From Thomasclavelia ramosa DSM 1402 (GTDB lineage: Bacteria; Bacillota_I; Bacilli_A; Erysipelotrichales; Coprobacillaceae), in assembly GCF_014131695.1 (NCBI RefSeq), contig NZ_CP036346.1:2170001-2234000 (forward strand): a stretch of DNA of 64,000 bases, given 5' to 3'. The translations under genes and the position numbers were made by a program. Of this stretch, positions 4,005 to 42,546 are shown one piece after another (positions within the stretch are counted from its first letter, which is position 1; the number at the start of each line of letters is the position of its first letter). The notes beneath the pieces are model-generated. The model made no database searches. It was given only the letters and a program-made list of their open reading frames with translations, and was not told where the DNA came from.

Positions 4005-5186
4005 TTATCTGATTTTCTTCAAATCATTTGTTAAAATAATCTCATCGTGTTTCTTCTTTTCATTATAACGATTAGTAATGCGATCAACCGCTATTTTTGC
4101 GCCATCTAAATCCGGTGAGGCAAGAATCAATGAATATTGTGTCATATTAAACTTTGAATAAACATCATTTTTTCTCAAACTATTTGAAATCACTTCTCTT
4201 AAAATATCTGCTTCTTGGCGAATCGCCTTTTCGTCTAAACAACCACTTGTATCAACGATCGTAAGTAAAGTTAAAATTCGTGCTTTCATCGAACGTCTTG
4301 CTGAACGAACATTGATTTGATAAATATTTTTAAAAACGTCAAAATCACAATAAAATGTATTATCATTGTTATCATCAACTGTTAGACTCTTTTCCAATTC
4401 TTCAACATCAATTTGTGTCGCAGGAGAAGTATCTAGAATCATTTCATAAATTTCTTTCAGTCGCTGTGACACTTCAATTCCATATTTACTATAGTAATAA
4501 TCTACGATTTGACGATAAAATGATAATGCAAGATCTGTTTTACCTGTCTTATAATAAGCATAAAGCTTCATTTCATATAATCGTGTATCCATTATTTTTT
4601 GACTGTTTTGGTGATTACAAATTTGTAAAACCTGTTCATATAAGTTATTGTTAGCTAAAATCGTTAAAGTTTTTAAAATTGCCTCTAAACAATTACGTTC
4701 TAACAAATTATTTATTTCTAAGATCCAGTCATTATAATTAAACTCTGGTAAAACCTCTCCATGATATTTGTTGATCATTTCTAAACAGCGTTCATGCTTG
4801 CGGTAAGGATCATCTTCCTGTTCAACACGACGACAAAGTTTCAACATCTCCTCATAATCAACTCGACATTCAACTTCAGGATTCCAATAATAACTTCGTC
4901 CCTTAGATTTAATACAATCAACTTCTTTAAAAAACTGTTTCATTTCCTTTCGAGCTCGATAAATCAGATTTCTTAATGCTCCTTCCGGTTTATCAGCATT
5001 TCCATCTGGCCAAAGAAAATCAATCAGTTGTGGATTAGTTATATTAGCATTTCGATTAAGAATTAAATATACAATCAACAACTCAACTTGGGCACTTCGT
5101 TTCTTTTCTTGAGGAAATTCATTTTCCCCATCAGTGATATGCAGTCTACCTAAGGTCTTGATTTTTAATACTAATTTTTTATCCAT
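4005..5186 (-). CDS. SARP/BTAD-family transcriptional regulator with degenerate GGDEF-like C-terminus
   Basis: 393 residues from the ATG at 5186, preceded by AGGGAGTG; an upstream in-frame ATG at 5240 has no such site. Residues about 1-103 form an OmpR-like winged helix (YLILNRNANI, LRNLIYRARKEMK), and about 105-255 the helical BTAD repeat domain typical of AfsR/SARP activators. The last ~110 residues (LREVISNSLRKNDVYSKF...YSLILASPDLDGAK) align by eye with the diguanylate cyclase core. The GGDEF signature is replaced by FNMTQY at 346-351, so no cyclase activity is expected; it may bind a ligand or be structural. The gene sits directly upstream of the Cna-B surface protein, so it probably activates that gene; this is inference. 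Confidence 0.8.
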   Translation of the reverse strand: MDKKLVLKIKTLGRLHITDGENEFPQEKKRSAQVELLIVYLILNRNANITNPQLIDFLWPDGNADKPEGALRNLIYRARKEMKQFFKEVDCIKSKGRSYYWNPEVECRVDYEEMLKLCRRVEQEDDPYRKHERCLEMINKYHGEVLPEFNYNDWILEINNLLERNCLEAILKTLTILANNNLYEQVLQICNHQNSQKIMDTRLYEMKLYAYYKTGKTDLALSFYRQIVDYYYSKYGIEVSQRLKEIYEMILDTSPATQIDVEELEKSLTVDDNNDNTFYCDFDVFKNIYQINVRSARRSMKARILTLLTIVDTSGCLDEKAIRQEADILREVISNSLRKNDVYSKFNMTQYSLILASPDLDGAKIAVDRITNRYNEKKKHDEIILTNDLKKIR

Positions 5187-5330
5187 AAAAATCACTCCCT
5201 TGTTTACATGTTTCAACATCATAATTATACTATATTCCAATTATGATATTTTCTTATTCAAAAAAATAAATCGTCTTTTTTCAAGACTTTAAATAAAATA
5301 TAACCGTTTTGTAACCAAAATAATATATAA

Positions 5331-6386
5331 TTAAAATTTTCTTTCAATCAAATTCGGATTTGATGCATACATGACTGCTGTCTCTTTTGTAATCTTATTT
5401 TGTTTATATAAATCAACGATCGCATCATCCATAGTAACCATACCAATTTGGCGATTAGTAGATATAGCATTATCAATTTGGTGCGTTTTACCATCACGAA
5501 TCAATGTTCTAATTGCTTGATTACAAATCATGATTTCAAATACGGGTATCATTTTACCATCAATACCTGGTACTAATTGTTGGGAGATGACTGCATTAAG
5601 TACCATTGCCAGCTGAACTCGAATTTGCTGCTGCTGTGAAGGAGGAAACACATCAATCATTCGATCAATCGTATTAGCAGCACCAACTGTATGCAAACTT
5701 GAAAAAACCAAATGCCCCGTCTCAGCTGCCGTAACTGCAATATCAATAGTTTCTAAGTCACGCATTTCACCAACTAAAATAACTTCTGGCGCCTCCCGTA
5801 AAGCTGCTCTTAACGCAGAAACATAGTCATGGGTATCGTGATAAACTTCTCGTTGTGAAACGATACTTTTGTCATGACTATGCAAATATTCAATAGGATC
5901 TTCAATTGTAATAATGTGTGTATTTCGATTACGATTGATCTGATCAATAATACAGGCTAATGTCGTAGATTTACCGCTTCCTGCCGGGCCGGTTACTAAG
6001 ACCATTCCTTTCTTTTGATTAGCTAGGTCAGTAATTACTTTTGGAATATGCATTACTTCAGGATCAGGAAGTTGAAAACTAACAACACGTAATACTGCGG
6101 CACAAGAGTTTCTTTGACGATAAGCATTGACCCGAAACCGCCCTACATTAGGAATAGAAAAAGAAAAATCATCATCGCCACTTCTCATAAATTCTTCAAT
6201 TCCAGCGTTATTAGCAATTTCATAAATATCACGAATCATCCGCTCAGTATCATGTGGTGTCAAACGTTCATCGCTATATTTTGAAATTCTCCCATCTATC
6301 TTAATAGCACAAGGCGAACCTGCAACAATAAAGATATCAGAAGCCCCTTTAGTTACTACTTCTTCTAATAATTTTTTTATTTCCAT
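5331..6386 (-). CDS. pilT: PilT-type secretion/pilus ATPase
   Basis: 351 residues, the usual PilT length. PilT is a cytoplasmic hexameric ATPase that powers pilus retraction. Walker A is GPAGSGKST (133-141), the Asp box region is TIEDPIEYLH (160-169), Walker B is VILVGEMRD (202-210), the His box is HLVFSSLHT, and the C-terminal AIRTLIRDGK (291-300) corresponds to the AIRNLIRE motif that marks PilT rather than PilB. It is the last gene of a compact operon that also encodes a PilC-like platform and small one-helix proteins. No extension ATPase (PilB) is in the window, so this protein may serve alone or with an ATPase encoded elsewhere. Family assignment is secure; its role in extension or retraction is not. 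Confidence 0.93.
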   Translation of the reverse strand: MEIKKLLEEVVTKGASDIFIVAGSPCAIKIDGRISKYSDERLTPHDTERMIRDIYEIANNAGIEEFMRSGDDDFSFSIPNVGRFRVNAYRQRNSCAAVLRVVSFQLPDPEVMHIPKVITDLANQKKGMVLVTGPAGSGKSTTLACIIDQINRNRNTHIITIEDPIEYLHSHDKSIVSQREVYHDTHDYVSALRAALREAPEVILVGEMRDLETIDIAVTAAETGHLVFSSLHTVGAANTIDRMIDVFPPSQQQQIRVQLAMVLNAVISQQLVPGIDGKMIPVFEIMICNQAIRTLIRDGKTHQIDNAISTNRQIGMVTMDDAIVDLYKQNKITKETAVMYASNPNLIERKF

Positions 6387-6387
6387 T

Positions 6388-6768
6388 TTATTCCTCCAGA
6401 TTAATTGTTTTTAAACTAATTATTTTGAGACTATCATTTTCTTGCACAAATGACAGCTGTAAAACTTGAGAATCATTTATTTTATCTTCAAGCATATATA
6501 AATCATCTTCTTTTTGATACTCGATTTGAAGATTTTCTAAACTATATTCTAAATTTTGACTATCTAATTGATAATATTTGGTTAACAGCCGTGACTCACT
6601 TTCGTAATATTGACTAGTAATATTAGCTTGGCGAACGCTTGACTCATAATAAGAATTAGCTCGCAAATATGATAATATTGCCAGTACACACATAACTAAA
6701 ATCACAAAAATCATAAAAATTGATGGCGCCCCAATTCCCAAACGCATTGAAGTATGTTTCTTATTCAT
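6388..6768 (-). CDS. Small one-helix membrane protein of the pilus-like operon
   Basis: 126 residues, not recognised. A hydrophobic segment at about 15-34 (GAPSIFMIFVILVMCVLAIL) is followed by an extracytoplasmic, Glu/Asn-rich and helical tail (YYESESRLLTKYYQ). No consensus prepilin-peptidase site (G followed by FTLxE) is present, so it is not an ordinary type IV pilin. Its start overlaps the end of the preceding gene by 8 bases through the sequence ATGAATAA, which implies translational coupling. Only one base separates its stop from pilT. By position and topology it may be a minor pilin-like or assembly protein. Confidence 0.7.
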   Translation of the reverse strand: MNKKHTSMRLGIGAPSIFMIFVILVMCVLAILSYLRANSYYESSVRQANITSQYYESESRLLTKYYQLDSQNLEYSLENLQIEYQKEDDLYMLEDKINDSQVLQLSFVQENDSLKIISLKTINLEE

Positions 6769-7129
6769 CGTGATTACCTCCTAATACAAAAGGCAATTCA
6801 CTGATAACTTCGTTTTTATTCTTTATCATTATTTTTCCTTGAGTAATCATATCTCTATCTATTTCAATAAAAATATTATCTTTTTGATAATGATTCTCAT
6901 CGATTTTTTCTACTTCCAATAATTGTTCTAAATCAGCCTGCGGATAAGCTTGCATTCTTTCAATCATACTTTGCGCCTCAATTAATGCATTTTGCAAATT
7001 AGTCCCTTGTACTTGTTTATTTTTAGCTTGCACTATAAATGAGGCACATACTGTTGTTGAAGCAGCAAAAAAGAGGATAACTATGATTAATTCCATTAAA
7101 AACGAAAATGACTGTACTTTTGATTTCAT
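6761..7129 (-). CDS. Pilin-like single-helix protein
   Basis: 122 residues. The N-terminus KSKVQSFSFLMELIIVILFF places a Glu about five residues into the hydrophobic helix, like the Glu+5 of type IV pilins, but the glycine expected just before the cleavage point is missing. The rest is a soluble domain with alternating strands. Three products of this operon share this plan of short N-terminus, helix, and small globular domain. It probably belongs to the pilus-like machine as a minor pilin or pseudopilin; whether it is processed is unknown. Confidence 0.7.
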   Translation of the reverse strand: MKSKVQSFSFLMELIIVILFFAASTTVCASFIVQAKNKQVQGTNLQNALIEAQSMIERMQAYPQADLEQLLEVEKIDENHYQKDNIFIEIDRDMITQGKIMIKNKNEVISELPFVLGGNHDE

Positions 7130-7138
7130 ACTTTCCTC

Positions 7139-7588
7139 CTATCCATGTAAATAAATTGAAATACTTTTGCTAACTTGATCACGTGTAACTGTAAATTTAA
7201 ATAAACGGTCTTTTTGTTCTATTTTAAAATCATCTAATGCAAATAACTTACTACCCTCTTGTAACCCCGCATGATAGTCATTACTTGTATATAATTCCTT
7301 GAGATAACCATCTTGACAATAAATATAAGTAACCGTCTTAGCAGTTTTAATTTCTAAACATTGCGTATTATCTATTTCAACAATTTTAGTCGAATCGTCA
7401 CTATCATTTGCTTTTAACTTCGTGTTTAAATAAGCCAAAGGCACAATTAAATCATCTTCTTGTTGACACGTATCATTAATAACTTGATATCCTTTTATTT
7501 CATAAGTAACAATAAAGAAAGACCCAATTACAAAAAGCAAGAACAATGACAGCGAAAATAATACATGTATATTACGATGTTTATTCAT
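7139..7588 (-). CDS. DUF4860-like membrane protein of the pilus-like operon
   Basis: 149 residues from the ATG at 7588, which has AAGGAGAAG upstream; a longer frame to 7672 lacks a ribosome binding site. One transmembrane helix lies at about 9-31 (VLFSLSLFLLFVIGSFFIV), followed by an extracytoplasmic domain of mixed strands with two cysteines (IDNTQCLEIK, VTYIYCQDGY) that could pair. The pattern, with YLNTKLKANDSDD and then a short beta region, resembles the DUF4860 family found in Clostridia beside pilus/type II secretion genes. That assignment is from memory. Its start overlaps the previous gene by 8 bases (ATGAATAA). Confidence 0.65.
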   Translation of the reverse strand: MNKHRNIHVLFSLSLFLLFVIGSFFIVTYEIKGYQVINDTCQQEDDLIVPLAYLNTKLKANDSDDSTKIVEIDNTQCLEIKTAKTVTYIYCQDGYLKELYTSNDYHAGLQEGSKLFALDDFKIEQKDRLFKFTVTRDQVSKSISIYLHG

Positions 7589-7880
7589 AGTTCTTCTCCT
7601 TTTTAAATACCTTGATTCGTGGTTGTAAATTATCTCCTTCATAATAATAAATAACCTGATAATCTTCATCATTTAAAAGCAACCCATAATTTTCCTTCAA
7701 ATACTCAATATCTTTAGGATATTTGCCTTCAATACTATAACATTTTAAACTAAGTTGATTAATTGTATCACTAACCCGTTTTAGATCCTCATTTGATGAA
7801 TATGTTGAAGTAGAATTGAAAGCATAAATGCTTACCATGATTATAACTATCAGTAAGATTATCTTTAACATATTTTTCAT
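7581..7880 (-). CDS. Minor pilin-like small protein
   Basis: 99 residues with a single N-terminal hydrophobic helix (about 5-21, LKIILLIVIIMVSIYAF). A soluble part follows with the pattern CYSIEGKYPKDIEYLKENYG, reminiscent of the region after the helix in pseudopilins, where a Tyr-Pro pair follows a variable Cys/Glu stretch. No type III signal peptide is visible. It is the second small gene after pilC and overlaps the next gene by 8 bases. Not firmly recognised. Confidence 0.65.
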   Translation of the reverse strand: MKNMLKIILLIVIIMVSIYAFNSTSTYSSNEDLKRVSDTINQLSLKCYSIEGKYPKDIEYLKENYGLLLNDEDYQVIYYYEGDNLQPRIKVFKKEKNYE

Positions 7881-7890
7881 AAATAACCTC

Positions 7891-8919
7891 CTATAAAGAG
7901 GACATGATACTAATTAATGGCAACATTACCGACATCAAGACTATTCCCACTACTAAAGATAACAAAGTTACAATCGTTGGTTCTATGATATTTAAAAATT
8001 GGTCTATCGCACGACTAACTTCTTCTTGAAAACTATTTGATAATTGTTTCATGATTATATCAACCTGTCCAGTTTTAAAACCGACCTGAATCATATTTAA
8101 CTGCATTCCTTGATAAATTTGATATTTTTTGATAACTTCAACGAAACTATCACCATTTATGAGATCTTCATTGCATTTTTCTAAATTAGCCCTAAGCTGT
8201 TTATCATCAACTAATTTTGGTACAAACTTCATTGCCTCTTGTAAATCATAACCACTAGAAATAAACAATGACAAAGCATAAGTAATTTGAGCTTTATTTA
8301 ATGCTCTTGACAATTTCCTTGTTAAAAAAGATTTCTGCACTACGTTTGACAAGACATTTACATGGGTAACGCGCTGATATAAATATCCAGCAATAATTAC
8401 TATCACCAGCACTAACAAGACCGCAAAACATATCAATGAAAAAATTTGACCAAATTCCATAAAACTATTAGCATACGATGATAAATCACTGCCTAGTCCA
8501 TTTAAAACATCTTTAAAAATTGGTAATACTTTAAATACAATGATTCCTACAACCACCACCATCATAATAATTAAAATGATTGGATAAGTTAAAGCCTGTT
8601 TCAGTTTATTTGTTATATCATCAATTCGAGCATAATATTCACTTAATGATTGCATAACATCATCTAAATTACCGCTCGTTTCACCCACTTTGACTAAATT
8701 AACCATATAGTCATCAAAAGCTTTAGTTAGATCGATTGCTTCACTAAAACTTACTTGTTCATCTAAATATTTAGCAACTTCTTGAAGAACCCCTTTAATG
8801 TTTTTATCATCCATTTCTTCATATACCATCGTAACCCCTTGATTAAGACTAAATCCCGATTCTAAGATCATTGCCATCTGGTTACAAAACATATATTTTT
8901 CACTCATCGTCAATTTCAT
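7891..8919 (-). CDS. pilC: Type II secretion F / PilC-family inner-membrane platform protein
   Basis: 342 residues, slightly shorter than typical PilC/GspF (about 400). Two T2SSF domains are visible: one at about 6-128 (MSEKYMFCNQMAMILESGFSLNQ...), a second at about 195-320 (LNKAQITYALSLFISSGYDLQEAM...). Transmembrane segments follow each (YPIILIIMMVVVVGIIVFKV; CFAVLLVLVIVIIAGYLY; IVTLLSLVVGIVLMSVMLPL). In the family this protein anchors the ATPase and the growing pilus in the membrane. It lies between the lipoprotein gene and the small pilin-like genes, with gaps of 10-11 bases. Confidence 0.9.
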   Translation of the reverse strand: MKLTMSEKYMFCNQMAMILESGFSLNQGVTMVYEEMDDKNIKGVLQEVAKYLDEQVSFSEAIDLTKAFDDYMVNLVKVGETSGNLDDVMQSLSEYYARIDDITNKLKQALTYPIILIIMMVVVVGIIVFKVLPIFKDVLNGLGSDLSSYANSFMEFGQIFSLICFAVLLVLVIVIIAGYLYQRVTHVNVLSNVVQKSFLTRKLSRALNKAQITYALSLFISSGYDLQEAMKFVPKLVDDKQLRANLEKCNEDLINGDSFVEVIKKYQIYQGMQLNMIQVGFKTGQVDIIMKQLSNSFQEEVSRAIDQFLNIIEPTIVTLLSLVVGIVLMSVMLPLISIMSSL

Positions 8920-8930
8920 CGTTTTTCTCC

Positions 8931-9836
8931 TTAATAACGTGCTGTTTCAACGTATTTTCCCTCATAATCATACTTAGTGCTTGCGAAAGTCGGATCCATA
9001 ATCGTCCATGTATCTTTATCCATAAAAATATCCGGATTGACCCAACCCTGCCCTTTAACATAAACTTCTAACCAAGAATGATATTCATCTTTATCAGTCC
9101 CCCCACAAATCAGTCGGGCTGGAATATGATTGATTCTTAACATTGCCGTCATCATTGAAGCATAATCAAAACATATGCCCTTTTTATTGTTAATTATTTC
9201 ATCTAAATTTGGAATCAAATACTGCTGTTTTGCTAAAGCTACTTTATCATCGTCATAGTTTATATAATTAGCCACAAATTCATAGACTTTTTTTATTCGT
9301 TTTAAATCATTATCTTCATCCTTCACTTCATCAATAGCTAACGTCGTAATCGCATCACCCGGTTTATAATTAACCAAGATATTAGGATATAAAAAGGGGA
9401 GCAGTTCGTTATCTAAAATAACATCAACTTCCACACTTTTTTTAATTGCATATTGGGTACCCTCAATATTTTCTAAAATTTTAATCAAATATTTTCCATT
9501 TCCCAACTGGAGTGGATAACTCACTCCTTGTTCATCCGTTAAATCATAATTTAGTTTTTGTTCATCTTTACTAATTTGAATTTTTATTCGTTTACTAACA
9601 CCTGGTTTTAAAAAGGCCATTACATATCCTTGATTAGTATTAGAATAATCAACCTTCGCTACATCACTATCTAAAACCAGTGCCCCTGATGCTTCAGGAT
9701 AAAGAATCTCATCAACTGTATAACTTTTTGATGTTGGATAATCACTTGGGTATTCTTGATTACTGTTATTATCACTTGAACATCCAGTAAGAAGACATGA
9801 TAATACAGTGACTACCACTAGTATTCGCTTGTACAT
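8931..9836 (-). CDS. Lipoprotein with transglutaminase-like domain
   Basis: 301 residues from the ATG at 9836, which lies 9 bases after AGGAGG; the ATG two codons earlier is only 3 bases away and less likely. The signal peptide ends in the lipobox LLTGC with Cys19 as lipidation site, so the protein is exported and membrane-tethered. A beta-rich middle precedes a transglutaminase-like domain near residues 190-290. It has the Cys in KKGICFDYASMMTAML, the His in EYHSWLEVYV and the Asp in IMDPTF, so the catalytic triad is intact. First gene of the pilus-like operon. It could cross-link, cleave or anchor surface polypeptides; the substrate is unknown. Confidence 0.88.
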   Translation of the reverse strand: MYKRILVVVTVLSCLLTGCSSDNNSNQEYPSDYPTSKSYTVDEILYPEASGALVLDSDVAKVDYSNTNQGYVMAFLKPGVSKRIKIQISKDEQKLNYDLTDEQGVSYPLQLGNGKYLIKILENIEGTQYAIKKSVEVDVILDNELLPFLYPNILVNYKPGDAITTLAIDEVKDEDNDLKRIKKVYEFVANYINYDDDKVALAKQQYLIPNLDEIINNKKGICFDYASMMTAMLRINHIPARLICGGTDKDEYHSWLEVYVKGQGWVNPDIFMDKDTWTIMDPTFASTKYDYEGKYVETARY

Positions 9837-9859
9837 TACCATTATCCTCCTTAATTTTA

Positions 9860-9920: not shown

Positions 9921-10481
9921 TTAACTAATTCCTATATAATATAAACCAATCTGTATGATTCCAGCTATTACCATCACTGTAATCGGGTTCATTTTCTGTT
10001 TCCTTAATAAAACCAGAGCAACTATAAATATGGCTACAGAACCAAATTTCAAATTTGCAAAGTTTACTGTATCTCCAAAAAAACAGCTAACAATAATCAA
10101 TAGTCCTGAAACTGCAATCAGCGACACTACAGCCGGACGAATATATTTTAAAATATTTTGAATAATTGACATTTGCTGATATTTTAAATAAATATAAGCA
10201 ATCAGCGATACAATAATACATGAAGGTAAAATGCATCCCAATGTCGCTACTATAGCCCCATAAAAACTATCTATCTTTAATCCAACAAATGTTGCCGCAT
10301 TAATTGCAATCGGTCCAGGTGTCATCTGGGATATCGTTATTAAATCTGTTAACTCATTCATCGTCAACCAATGATATAAATCAACTACTTGATGCTGAAT
10401 CAGCGGTAAAGCAGCATATCCTCCTCCAAAACTAAATGCACCAATTTGAAGAAAACTGGAAAACAAAGTTAAAAGTTTCAT
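9921..10481 (-). CDS. Chromate transporter family (CHR) protein, second of a pair
   Basis: 187 residues from the ATG at 10481, which overlaps the previous stop as ATGA and has GGAGGGA upstream. Short-chain CHR proteins consist of one six-helix half and work as pairs. The signature FSFGGGYAALPLI is near residue 15 and SQMTPGPIAINAATFVG near 48, followed by several hydrophobic helices. The family name comes from chromate resistance in proteobacteria; the substrate in Firmicutes is often unknown. It pairs with the neighbouring CHR gene, presumably forming a heterodimer. Confidence 0.88.
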   Translation of the reverse strand: MKLLTLFSSFLQIGAFSFGGGYAALPLIQHQVVDLYHWLTMNELTDLITISQMTPGPIAINAATFVGLKIDSFYGAIVATLGCILPSCIIVSLIAYIYLKYQQMSIIQNILKYIRPAVVSLIAVSGLLIIVSCFFGDTVNFANLKFGSVAIFIVALVLLRKQKMNPITVMVIAGIIQIGLYYIGIS

Positions 10482-11038
10482 TGTCTTTCCCTCCATCTGC
10501 TTACCATATTTTGTATAATTCCAATAAATCCACAACTTAAGATTACGTAAATAACATTTACATTAAAAAGATATGTTGCAATAAAAGCACATACCATAAT
10601 TATAATTGGTAAGATTTCTTTTTCTTTAACAACCCCTACTGCCATATCATAAGCAACTGAAGCAATTACTGCCCCAACTCCAGCCTGCATTCCAGAAAGC
10701 ATTAAGGCAATTATCTCATTGCTTTTAAAAATTTCATAAAACACTGACACTAATGATAAAATTACAAACGGTGGCAAAATCGTCGCTAAAATAGAAACTA
10801 TCGCACCTTTGATTCCCGCTAATTTAAAACCAACTACAATTGCACCATTTACCGCAATTGCCCCTGGGGCAGATTGGGCAATGGCAATCAAGTCAAGCAT
10901 TTCTTTTTCATCGATCCAGTTGAACTCATCAACATATTTTTTCTTCATCAATGTCACAATTACATAGCCACCGCCAAATGTAAAAGCACTTAAATAAAGA
11001 TTTGTTACAAAAAGCTTCAACAACATTCCTTTTTTCAT
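10478..11038 (-). CDS. Chromate transporter family (CHR) protein, first of a pair
   Basis: About 186 residues; two adjacent ATGs (11041 and 11038) follow GGAAGGTGAT and the second has better spacing. The CHR signature FTFGGGYVIVTLM and the motif AQSAPGAIAVNGAIVVG are present, with four to six hydrophobic segments. Its stop overlaps the start of the second CHR gene by four bases, so both are translated together. A clear promoter lies just upstream. The transported ion cannot be read from the sequence. Confidence 0.88.
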   Translation of the reverse strand: MKKGMLLKLFVTNLYLSAFTFGGGYVIVTLMKKKYVDEFNWIDEKEMLDLIAIAQSAPGAIAVNGAIVVGFKLAGIKGAIVSILATILPPFVILSLVSVFYEIFKSNEIIALMLSGMQAGVGAVIASVAYDMAVGVVKEKEILPIIIMVCAFIATYLFNVNVIYVILSCGFIGIIQNMVSRWRERQ

Positions 11039-11055
11039 CATATCACCTTCCCTAT

Positions 11056-11084
11056 AGTATAGTGCTAAATTATGATGATGTAAA
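11056..11084 (-). promoter_or_regulatory. Promoter of the CHR transporter pair
   Basis: Minus strand: TTTACA (11084-11079), 17-base spacer, TATACT (11061-11056), about 17 bases before the start codon. It lies immediately after the terminator of the dap operon. Confidence 0.65.
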
Positions 11085-11088
11085 ACAA

Positions 11089-11118
11089 AAGATAACATTA
11101 CTATTGCAATGTTATCTT
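11089..11118 (-). terminator. Rho-independent terminator of the dap operon
   Basis: Perfect 11-base inverted repeat, AAGATAACATT and AATGTTATCTT with an 8-base loop, followed on the minus strand by TTGTTTT. It lies 36 bases after the stop of the aminotransferase gene. Confidence 0.75.
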
Positions 11119-40846: not shown

Positions 40847-41950
40847 ATGATTTGTCCACGATGTAAGAATCAAGATTCACAATATTTTTATACTTTCAAA
40901 AATATTACTTATTGCCGTAAGTGCGTTAAGATCGGTTCAACTTGTTTTTCTCCTTCACAGTTACCTTCTATTATTAAGACAGTTGATTATCAGCTCGACT
41001 ACGAATTAACACCATTACAAAATAATATTTCCAGACAATTACTTCAACGTTATCAACAGCATCTCAACACTTCCCTTAAAGCGGTTTGTGGTGCCGGTAA
41101 AACAGAAATAACTTATGAGGTCATTAAATATGCACTAAACCAGGGGCAGCGAGTCTGCTTTACTACACCGCGAAAAGAACTAGTAATTGAATTAGCAAAG
41201 CGATTGCAAAGTCAATTCAAAAATATTTCAATAACCACTGTTTATGGCGGTCATAGTGAATTGGTAGATGGGCAATTTATTATTTGTACTACTCATCAGT
41301 TATATCGCTATCCCCAATATTTTGACTTATTAATTTTAGACGAATTGGATGCTTTCCCTTACGTAAATAACGAAGTCTTAATTGGTCTACTCCAAAACAG
41401 CATTAAAGGCAACTATATTTATATGTCTGCAACTCTAACCAATCAACCAGATTTATTAATGACCAAACGATATCATGGTTATCTTCTAGATGTTCCCAAG
41501 TGCTATCTAACTTCATCTTTGGTAATGTATCTTTGGGCAATTAAAAAAATTAGAGATTTTGTCAGAAAGAAAAAACCCGTACTTGTTTATGTTCCCACCA
41601 TACAATTAACAAATACAGTTGCCCGCATCTTTAAACTGTTTAAACTTAAAAGTCATGCTATCAGCTCTAACACTAAAGATATTCAAAAATTTATAGAACG
41701 TCTTAGACATCATCAATTAGATGTTTTAGTTACAACGACTATTTTAGAGCGCGGCATCACCATCGATAATGTTCAAGTAATTATTTTATACGGCAATAAT
41801 CGGATATATACAACTGCTACATTGATTCAAATATGTGGACGAGTAGGTCGTAAAACAGCACATCCCAGTGGAAGTATTAGTATTTTTACTCCATACAAGA
41901 CCAGGGCAATTAAAGAGTGTCTCAAAACAATCAAGCAGGACAATGCTTAA
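40847..41950 (+). CDS. comFA: Competence helicase ComFA
   Basis: 367 residues, shorter than B. subtilis ComFA (463). Four cysteines in the N-terminal zinc domain (MICPRCKN and CRKCVK), then a DEAD-like helicase: Walker A VCGAGKTEITYE, DEAH-like motif LILDELDAFPYV, SATL, and motif VI TLIQICGRVGRKT. ComFA helps to pull transforming DNA strands across the membrane. Start follows GGGTGAT. Overlaps comFC by 34 bases. Indicates a potential for natural competence. Confidence 0.92.
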   Translation: MICPRCKNQDSQYFYTFKNITYCRKCVKIGSTCFSPSQLPSIIKTVDYQLDYELTPLQNNISRQLLQRYQQHLNTSLKAVCGAGKTEITYEVIKYALNQGQRVCFTTPRKELVIELAKRLQSQFKNISITTVYGGHSELVDGQFIICTTHQLYRYPQYFDLLILDELDAFPYVNNEVLIGLLQNSIKGNYIYMSATLTNQPDLLMTKRYHGYLLDVPKCYLTSSLVMYLWAIKKIRDFVRKKKPVLVYVPTIQLTNTVARIFKLFKLKSHAISSNTKDIQKFIERLRHHQLDVLVTTTILERGITIDNVQVIILYGNNRIYTTATLIQICGRVGRKTAHPSGSISIFTPYKTRAIKECLKTIKQDNA

Positions 41951-42546
41951 TCTGTTTTAATGATCTCAATAAATCACCTAGCTTATATCATCTTTATTAT
42001 CATGCTACACTATGTTTTCATTGTCTTAACCAATTTTCAATCTATAATCGAACTCATGACTATCATGGTTACAAACTTACGATTTTATATTACTATAACG
42101 ATTTCTTTAAACAATTGTTATTTCAATATAAAGGACAAGGTGATTATGCTTTAAAAGATGCTTTTTTGAATGCATATCCTCATTTTAAAACCAAATATCG
42201 GCGTCATCTCATCGCGCTTGTTCCCAGCAGCCAACAAGACGATCTAAGACGAGGTTTTAACCCAAATGAAATGATTGTAAGAAGTTTTAGTAATCATATT
42301 TTTACTGGTTTATACAAAAATTCCGCCTATAAACAGACCAGCCAAACTGATCGCAGTCAAGTAAGTCAGATTATCAAGATTAAAGATGGTCAGCGGTTAT
42401 ATAATCAAAATGTGATAATTTTTGATGATGTTATTACCTCAGGCAATACTATTATGACTTGTGCAAAAGTTATCAGTTCCTATCAGCCCAAAACAATTAG
42501 TATAATCGTTATGGCAAGTAATCAATTAGATAAATTATTTAAATAA
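41917..42546 (+). CDS. comFC: ComFC-like phosphoribosyltransferase-fold protein
   Basis: 209 residues from a GTG start inside the end of comFA; no better ATG lies before the conserved region. An N-terminal zinc-binding part has CLICFNDL and CFHCLNQF. The C-terminal part carries the PRPP-loop-like motif VIIFDDVITSGNTIMTC, and ALVPSSQQDDLRRGFNPNEM precedes it. ComFC is needed for DNA uptake in competent bacteria. Cotranscribed with comFA. Confidence 0.9.
   Translation: MSQNNQAGQCLICFNDLNKSPSLYHLYYHATLCFHCLNQFSIYNRTHDYHGYKLTILYYYNDFFKQLLFQYKGQGDYALKDAFLNAYPHFKTKYRRHLIALVPSSQQDDLRRGFNPNEMIVRSFSNHIFTGLYKNSAYKQTSQTDRSQVSQIIKIKDGQRLYNQNVIIFDDVITSGNTIMTCAKVISSYQPKTISIIVMASNQLDKLFK

Follow-up and report, generated by a model that had tools for sequence, protein, structure and literature searches.

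A putative PilT-driven relative of type IV filaments, without its own PilB or prepilin peptidase, encoded by a conserved seven-gene operon of Erysipelotrichales and Clostridia

What does a pilus-like operon do when the only motor that it encodes is an ATPase of the retraction type? Every type IV filament system is described as containing a pilin, a prepilin peptidase, an extension ATPase and a platform protein (PMC10191384). The locus examined here lies in a stretch of 64,000 nucleotides of Thomasclavelia ramosa DSM 1402 (contig NZ_CP036346.1, positions 2,170,001 to 2,234,000), hereafter the window, from whose first letter positions are counted. Its minus strand carries, between 5331 and 9842, seven tightly packed open reading frames encoding a transglutaminase lipoprotein, a PilC protein, four one-helix proteins and a PilT ATPase. 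Sequence comparisons indicate that this module is separate, conserved and undescribed, and that it is probably a self-contained relative of type IV filaments, in which the PilT-clade ATPase would be the only dedicated motor and would act independently of PilB and prepilin peptidase. The genes of the operon are as follows.

8931..9842, minus strand: transglutaminase-fold lipoprotein (TG), Pfam PF01841; a second in-frame ATG lies at 9836
7891..8919, minus strand: PilC/GspF platform protein, PF00482 at 147 bits
7581..7880, minus strand: p99, a one-helix protein of 99 amino acids, no family match above cut-off
7139..7588, minus strand: DUF4860 protein, PF16152 at 90 bits (9e-26); listed start 7672, ATG at 7588 more likely
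6761..7129, minus strand: p122, a one-helix protein of 122 amino acids, no family match above cut-off, described from a family alignment
6388..6768, minus strand: p126, a one-helix protein of 126 amino acids, no family match above cut-off, described from a family alignment
5331..6386, minus strand: PilT-family ATPase, TIGR01420 at 442 bits (1.3e-132)

An earlier note, made from the letters of the window, had described these seven genes as one transcription unit, and the layout agrees: because the intergenic distances are only -8 to +11 bp, the operon is consistent with a single transcript, while a promoter scan was uninformative (43 found, 30.5 expected). Purifying selection acts on each of the seven genes (dN/dS 0.01-0.31 over nine close pairs), which, together with the same gene order in about 120 loci, argues that the operon is not a product of chance.

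Homologous loci were collected via DUF4860 or p99, and not via PilT or PilC, yielding 122 module loci, about 119 of them distinct (judged by length, the contigs of at least three loci, L113, L156 and L160, seem to repeat those of L043, L074 and L078). The order PilC-p99-DUF4860-p122-p126 is found in 118 of these, the other four being cut by contig ends; PilT follows p126 directly in 105/122, and TG stands beside the module on the same strand in 110/122. None of the 122 loci contains pilB, the sole other T2SSE gene being a comGA next to the module of genome G173, and the conservation of the seven-gene set without pilB, which the earlier note had put up for checking, is thereby borne out. DUF4860 is patchy, occurring in 53/209 genomes of Erysipelotrichales, nearly always with a TIGR01420 PilT about 1 kb away. 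In 40 neighbourhoods and the window, the order TG-PilC-p99-DUF4860-p122-p126-PilT is retained while the flanks differ; TG is present in 38 of these 41, and one locus carries an insertion. A p99 scan of named genomes returned 207 relatives, the best 80 of which belong to Clostridia (Lachnospiraceae, Oscillospiraceae, Christensenellaceae, Family XIII, Fusibacter, Fermentithermobacillaceae and others) and to some Erysipelotrichales. Viral contigs gave no p99 relative to a single-protein query, a type of search that can pick up only close relatives.

Individual loci depart from the common pattern. Four (L092, L105, L119 and L087) show a variant order, with PilT upstream of PilC and a p122 that retains GFTLVE or AFTMVE. 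In the single-contig genome G042, other open reading frames lie between p122 and p126 and PilC is split over two frames (L048), probably a broken copy; in L152 one contig holds two inverted module copies whose genes have identical lengths, perhaps through an error of assembly.

Independence from the canonical machinery was assessed at the level of whole genomes. Apart from the module PilT, the window has no T2SSE ATPase that passes the Pfam cut-off, nor does it have a Peptidase_A24, and to that extent the absence of PilB and prepilin peptidase reported earlier stands. It fails genome-wide: the genome (3.25 Mb, single contig) carries a full type IV pilus locus at 2318-2330 kb, 143-153 kb downstream, and a comG operon at 1586-1590 kb (comGA, comGB and FTLIE prepilins), so that "no PilB/PilD" is false for T. 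ramosa. The pilus locus includes PilM_2 and T2SSM-family matches, four genes with FSLIE-, MTLIE-, MTLVE- or FTLIE-type N-termini, and the following genes, in genome coordinates.

2319174-2320184: main pilT
2320221-2321363: main pilB, with MshEN domain
about 2326.9-2328.1 kb: main pilC
2328288-2328599: pilD
2329462-2329539: FTLIE pilin

By its gene content, this genome appears to encode an ordinary type IV pilus, a DNA-uptake pilus and a third, compact seven-gene pilus-like set with a "retraction" motor only. Elsewhere the module occurs without such company. As regards INDEPENDENCE from PilB and PilD, full-length PilB was found in 24/53 Erysipelotrichales carriers, and Peptidase_A24 was unmatched in 7/53, some of these possibly owing to draft incompleteness. 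Christensenella hongkongensis HKU16 has no T2SSE ATPase over the cut-off besides the module PilT and no T2SSF protein besides the module PilC, and its genome gave no Peptidase_A24, no N_methyl prepilin, no PilB and no ComGA; Merdimmobilis hominis gives the same picture except for one weak ATPase match of 27.7 bits. A prepilin peptidase was likewise not found in genomes G227 and G007. In Christensenella sp. G233, represented by a 2.97 Mb contig, the module is complete and its PilT is the sole T2SSE ATPase, and three congeners have PilB besides the module, so the module exists with and without a type IV pilus inside one genus. A further genome, G230, was dropped as a module-only candidate, other T2SSF and prepilin fragments being present on another contig. 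The module thus persists in genomes without PilB, several of them also without prepilin peptidase or canonical prepilin, which supports the earlier suggestion of a reduced, PilT-driven envelope machine.

The motor and platform also set the module apart. Against its TIGR01420 cut-off of 319 bits the window PilT scores well, and it matches A. aeolicus PilT (2gsz) at 9e-100; it carries the signatures GPAGSGKSTTLAC, ASDIFIVAG and HxHxKSIVSQRE, with catalytic motifs intact, and TIGR01420-type motifs (AIRTLIRD, Walker, Asp and His boxes) are all retained in module PilT. It is neither of the ComGA type (NF041000, 140 bits, cut-off 300) nor GspE (126 bits, cut-off 630) nor DotB (161 bits, cut-off 463), and it shares 45% identity with the main type IV pilus PilT of the same genome. 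The window PilC has two T2SSF domains without an N-domain and is 24% identical to the main pilus PilC. It contains Tyr-Pro and Glu-Pro pairs in transmembrane segments 1 and 3 (TMS1, TMS3), respectively, in columns conserved across the alignment, and such platform residues have been assigned to an ion channel (PMC10790770). TG combines a Transglut_core domain (75 bits) with the lipobox LLTGC and matches PDB 3isr at 1.5e-6; its Cys-His-Asp residues are conserved in 38 loci (consensus GICFDYA...YHAW...DpT).

In phylogenies, 63/65 module PilTs form one clade (support 100/99) apart from the type IV pilus PilTs of the same genomes. The two outside it are L092 and L105, the members of the PilT-PilC variant order that were tested. 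Within it, the signal-poor rows of Lachnospiraceae, Oscillospiraceae, Christensenellaceae and Erysipelotrichales make up one group of 48 (100/100). Likewise, type IV pilus PilCs form one group (100/100) with all module PilCs outside. Inside the module clade the PilT tree follows taxonomy only loosely, and transfer between lineages is therefore likely.

The class III prepilin signal, glycine at -1 with glutamate at +5, is missing from all four small proteins of the window. The earlier note was right on this point and had overlooked a glutamate at the +5-like position of p122 (SFLMELIIVI), where phenylalanine replaces the -1 glycine. In the same operon of Acetoanaerobium noterae, p122 is MNKRNGFTLIEIII (GFTLIE; N_methyl 28.4 bits over a cut-off of 21.2) and the DUF4860 protein is KGVSKVEVILVM (PF16152, 8e-27). 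This signal-bearing relative came from NZ_CP154629.1, a PLSDB "plasmid" of 2.63 Mb that looks like a chromosome; the PilT matches in plasmid records were generic. Both signal residues occur in p122 of 18/27 early-branching Clostridia against 12/88 other loci (p = 3e-7), and in DUF4860 of 14/27 against 0/93 (p = 3e-11), p-values that are overstated, the compared rows being related. Among the scored rows in which a helix could be recognised, a single one lacks the p122 glutamate. In the derived clade, window included, the -1 glycine has mostly been lost and the p122 Glu+5 almost always retained; that signals were lost rather than gained would follow from the type IV pilus ancestry of pilins and the drawn root.

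As early-branching Clostridia bear canonical prepilin signals in p122 and DUF4860, and as the DUF4860 model is GspJ-like, the small proteins of the module appear to be descendants of pilins, with p122, by its sequence, a relative of I/V-type pilins. The AlphaFold2 (AF2) model of the DUF4860 protein (pLDDT 93.3) has a long N-terminal helix and eight strands and is closest to the minor pseudopilin GspJ (XcpW, 3nje, probability 0.90, TM 0.49/0.47, Foldseek E 0.62); the predicted fold resembles a J-like minor pseudopilin. Present in 122/122 loci and bearing a class III signal in none, p99 has one helix, an uncleaved signal anchor and the motif CYxxEGxYPxxxxYL. Its model (pLDDT 93.9) shows a helix at 2-51, a further helix and a beta hairpin; the match to type IV pilin 4d40 is weak (TM about 0.5, E 4.4), and profile matches to PilE/TcpA are sub-threshold only. 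This weak pilin resemblance suggests a G-like, major-pilin-like subunit. p126 has one helix and no Glu+5, and its relatives carry GSSSxLV without E+5, from which it may possibly be K-like (GspK). The S. sanguinis proteins PilI/J/K, considered as counterparts of the module proteins, found no support in the published text.

Several observations weigh against a self-contained machine. Five Lachnospiraceae loci (L115, L128, L131, L137 and L155) have no PilT beside the module, each of their genomes encoding one PilT-sized ATPase elsewhere; several PilB-less genomes are drafts; and fold searches with the p99 and DUF4860 models returned nothing at E <= 0.001, so that the folds were assigned from TM-scores and from homology to relatives that bear signals. 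In the window genome, PilB and PilD could serve the module, and carriage is associated with a type IV pilus locus (24/53 against at least 15/156, Fisher p = 8e-8), an enrichment that suggests cooperation or a shared lifestyle. These last points, with the complete pilus and comG loci of T. ramosa and the statement in excerpts of Imam 2011 (PMC3244431) that most pilT-bearing Gram-positives possess a second pil operon as well, would fit an accessory module of an ordinary type IV or Com pilus, which would supply PilB-built pili encoded elsewhere with another platform, another retraction ATPase and another set of minor pilins. Such a role appears unlikely: the module is kept without PilB and ComGA in C. 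hongkongensis, G233 and G227, its subunits mostly lack a PilD site although most carriers have PilD, and its PilT and PilC group apart from those of type IV pili.

The lost cleavage sites and the patchy distribution within genera (4/8 genomes of the window's own genus carry the module) might instead mark a type IV pilus locus in decay. This explanation is very improbable in view of the dN/dS values, of the single gene order across Clostridia and Erysipelotrichales despite different flanks, and of the retained Glu+5 and catalytic residues. Uptake of DNA, which the earlier note had raised because of comFA-comFC near 40.8 kb, is improbable and gained no specific support. The two genes are indeed in the window (40847-42546), 31 kb off and unlinked; in G173 (L071) the module lies directly upstream of the comG operon (comGA-comGB) on the same strand. 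The window genome has its separate comG operon for competence, however, and the module occurs where ComGA is absent, as in Christensenella.

On balance, we favour a widespread machine of Clostridia and Erysipelotrichales that derives from type IV filaments, runs on a PilT-family motor alone, uses uncleaved pilin-like subunits and needs neither extension ATPase nor peptidase. In such a machine, the four subunits would enter the membrane through uncleaved signal anchors and assemble on PilC into a short, membrane-tethered complex, endopilus-like or tip-like, the p122 Glu+5 being kept for helix packing. The PilT hexamer would rotate PilC and pull or rotate the complex, generating ATP-driven strokes across the wall, and the target of the transglutaminase, outside the cytoplasm, may be the wall, a substrate or the complex itself. 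Outward movement could arise from spontaneous assembly, from an ion flux through PilC, which retains the Tyr-Pro/Glu-Pro channel residues, or from a PilT that works in either direction, like CpaF in Tad. The most likely role of the module would be envelope work, such as protein or polymer export or surface attachment, rather than a long pilus.

A compatible sub-version of the self-contained machine takes PilT as an assembly motor, a functional PilB, that would polymerise uncleaved pilins into a genuine, though short, filament. PilT is the only ATPase in several genomes, and a single bidirectional motor is known in Tad (CpaF, in an excerpt of PMC11300603); the complete TIGR01420-type motif set of the module PilT and the lack of a class III signal in every p99, the presumed major subunit, speak against it. 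We regard it as a tentative possibility.

One neighbour recurs beside the module.

4005..5240, minus strand: BTAD/SARP-type regulator, PF03704 at 4.2e-9, a frequent module neighbour and likely accessory

In 34/122 loci such a regulator lies no more than 1.5 kb from the ends of the module, which suggests that expression of the module is regulated; Christensenella G233 also has one. The C-terminal part of the window regulator (LRKNDVYSKFNMTQYSLIL) resembles a degenerate GGDEF-type domain by eye, Pfam giving no confirmation, and a similar part is present in a Christensenella homologue (L189, 5794-7032). Upstream of the module, at 9921-11098, are two chromate-transporter-like open reading frames, named by eye; the modules of G032 and G036, two genomes of the same genus, have comparable pairs at their flanks.

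In the open literature we found no paper mentioning DUF4860, none on an operon of transglutaminase, PilT and PilC, none on PilT and twitching in Roseburia and nothing relevant on type IV pili of Christensenella. DUF4860, a domain of unknown function, here gains a context and a probable ancestry in common gut bacteria. If the module is the only such machine left in some species, it would break the rule that an extension motor and a prepilin-cutting enzyme belong to every type IV filament. It lacks two of the four core parts, yet its PilT and PilC are strongly selected, and PilB-based surveys may overlook it; excerpts of Denise 2019 (PMC6668835) name PilB as the ATPase for concatenate trees. The module makes testable the roles of PilT and PilC without PilB, an outward drive by ion flux or by PilT itself, and the conversion of pilins to uncleaved membrane subunits.

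Among known systems, DotB of Dot/Icm is a PilT-like ATPase that works without PilB, as in the module; Dot/Icm has no PilC and no pilins, and the window PilT falls far below the DotB cut-off. Tad-like Clostridia loci, as described in excerpts of Imam 2011 (PMC3244431), are likewise pilus-like without a recognisable prepilin, but consist of TadA/TadC/TadV/TadZ rather than PilT/PilC/DUF4860. The Com pilus (ComGA-GG) is a similarly small set, with one ATPase, a platform without N-domain and few pilin-like proteins; the module differs in that its ATPase is of the PilT clade, its subunits are mostly uncleavable and comC is not needed. With the endopilus of the type II secretion system (GspE-F-G-H-I-J-K) the module shares G-, I-, J- and perhaps K-like subunits on a GspF-type platform, the XcpW-like DUF4860 model among them, whereas it has PilT, no GspE or peptidase and no GspL/M among its genes; no secretin was among the Pfam matches of the module genes, the genomes themselves not having been searched for one. 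Type IVa pili have in common with it a PilT-family ATPase (the TIGR01420 match), a PilC platform and pilin-derived subunits, but the module genes include no PilB, PilD, PilM/N/O or cleavable major pilin, and add a separate PilT clade and TG as a near-constant neighbour. Of the four core parts, PilC supplies the platform. The extension ATPase (PilB/GspE/ComGA) is absent from the loci save the neighbouring comG in G173, and genome-wide in C. hongkongensis and G233; the peptidase is absent from C. hongkongensis, M. hominis, G227 and G007. Both are present elsewhere in the window genome. Class III subunits are lacking in the window module and partly present in basal Clostridia. With two of four core parts missing, and the derived clade mostly without the canonical pilin signal, the module falls outside that definition of a type IV filament (PMC10191384), though it derives from such filaments and probably works as they do.

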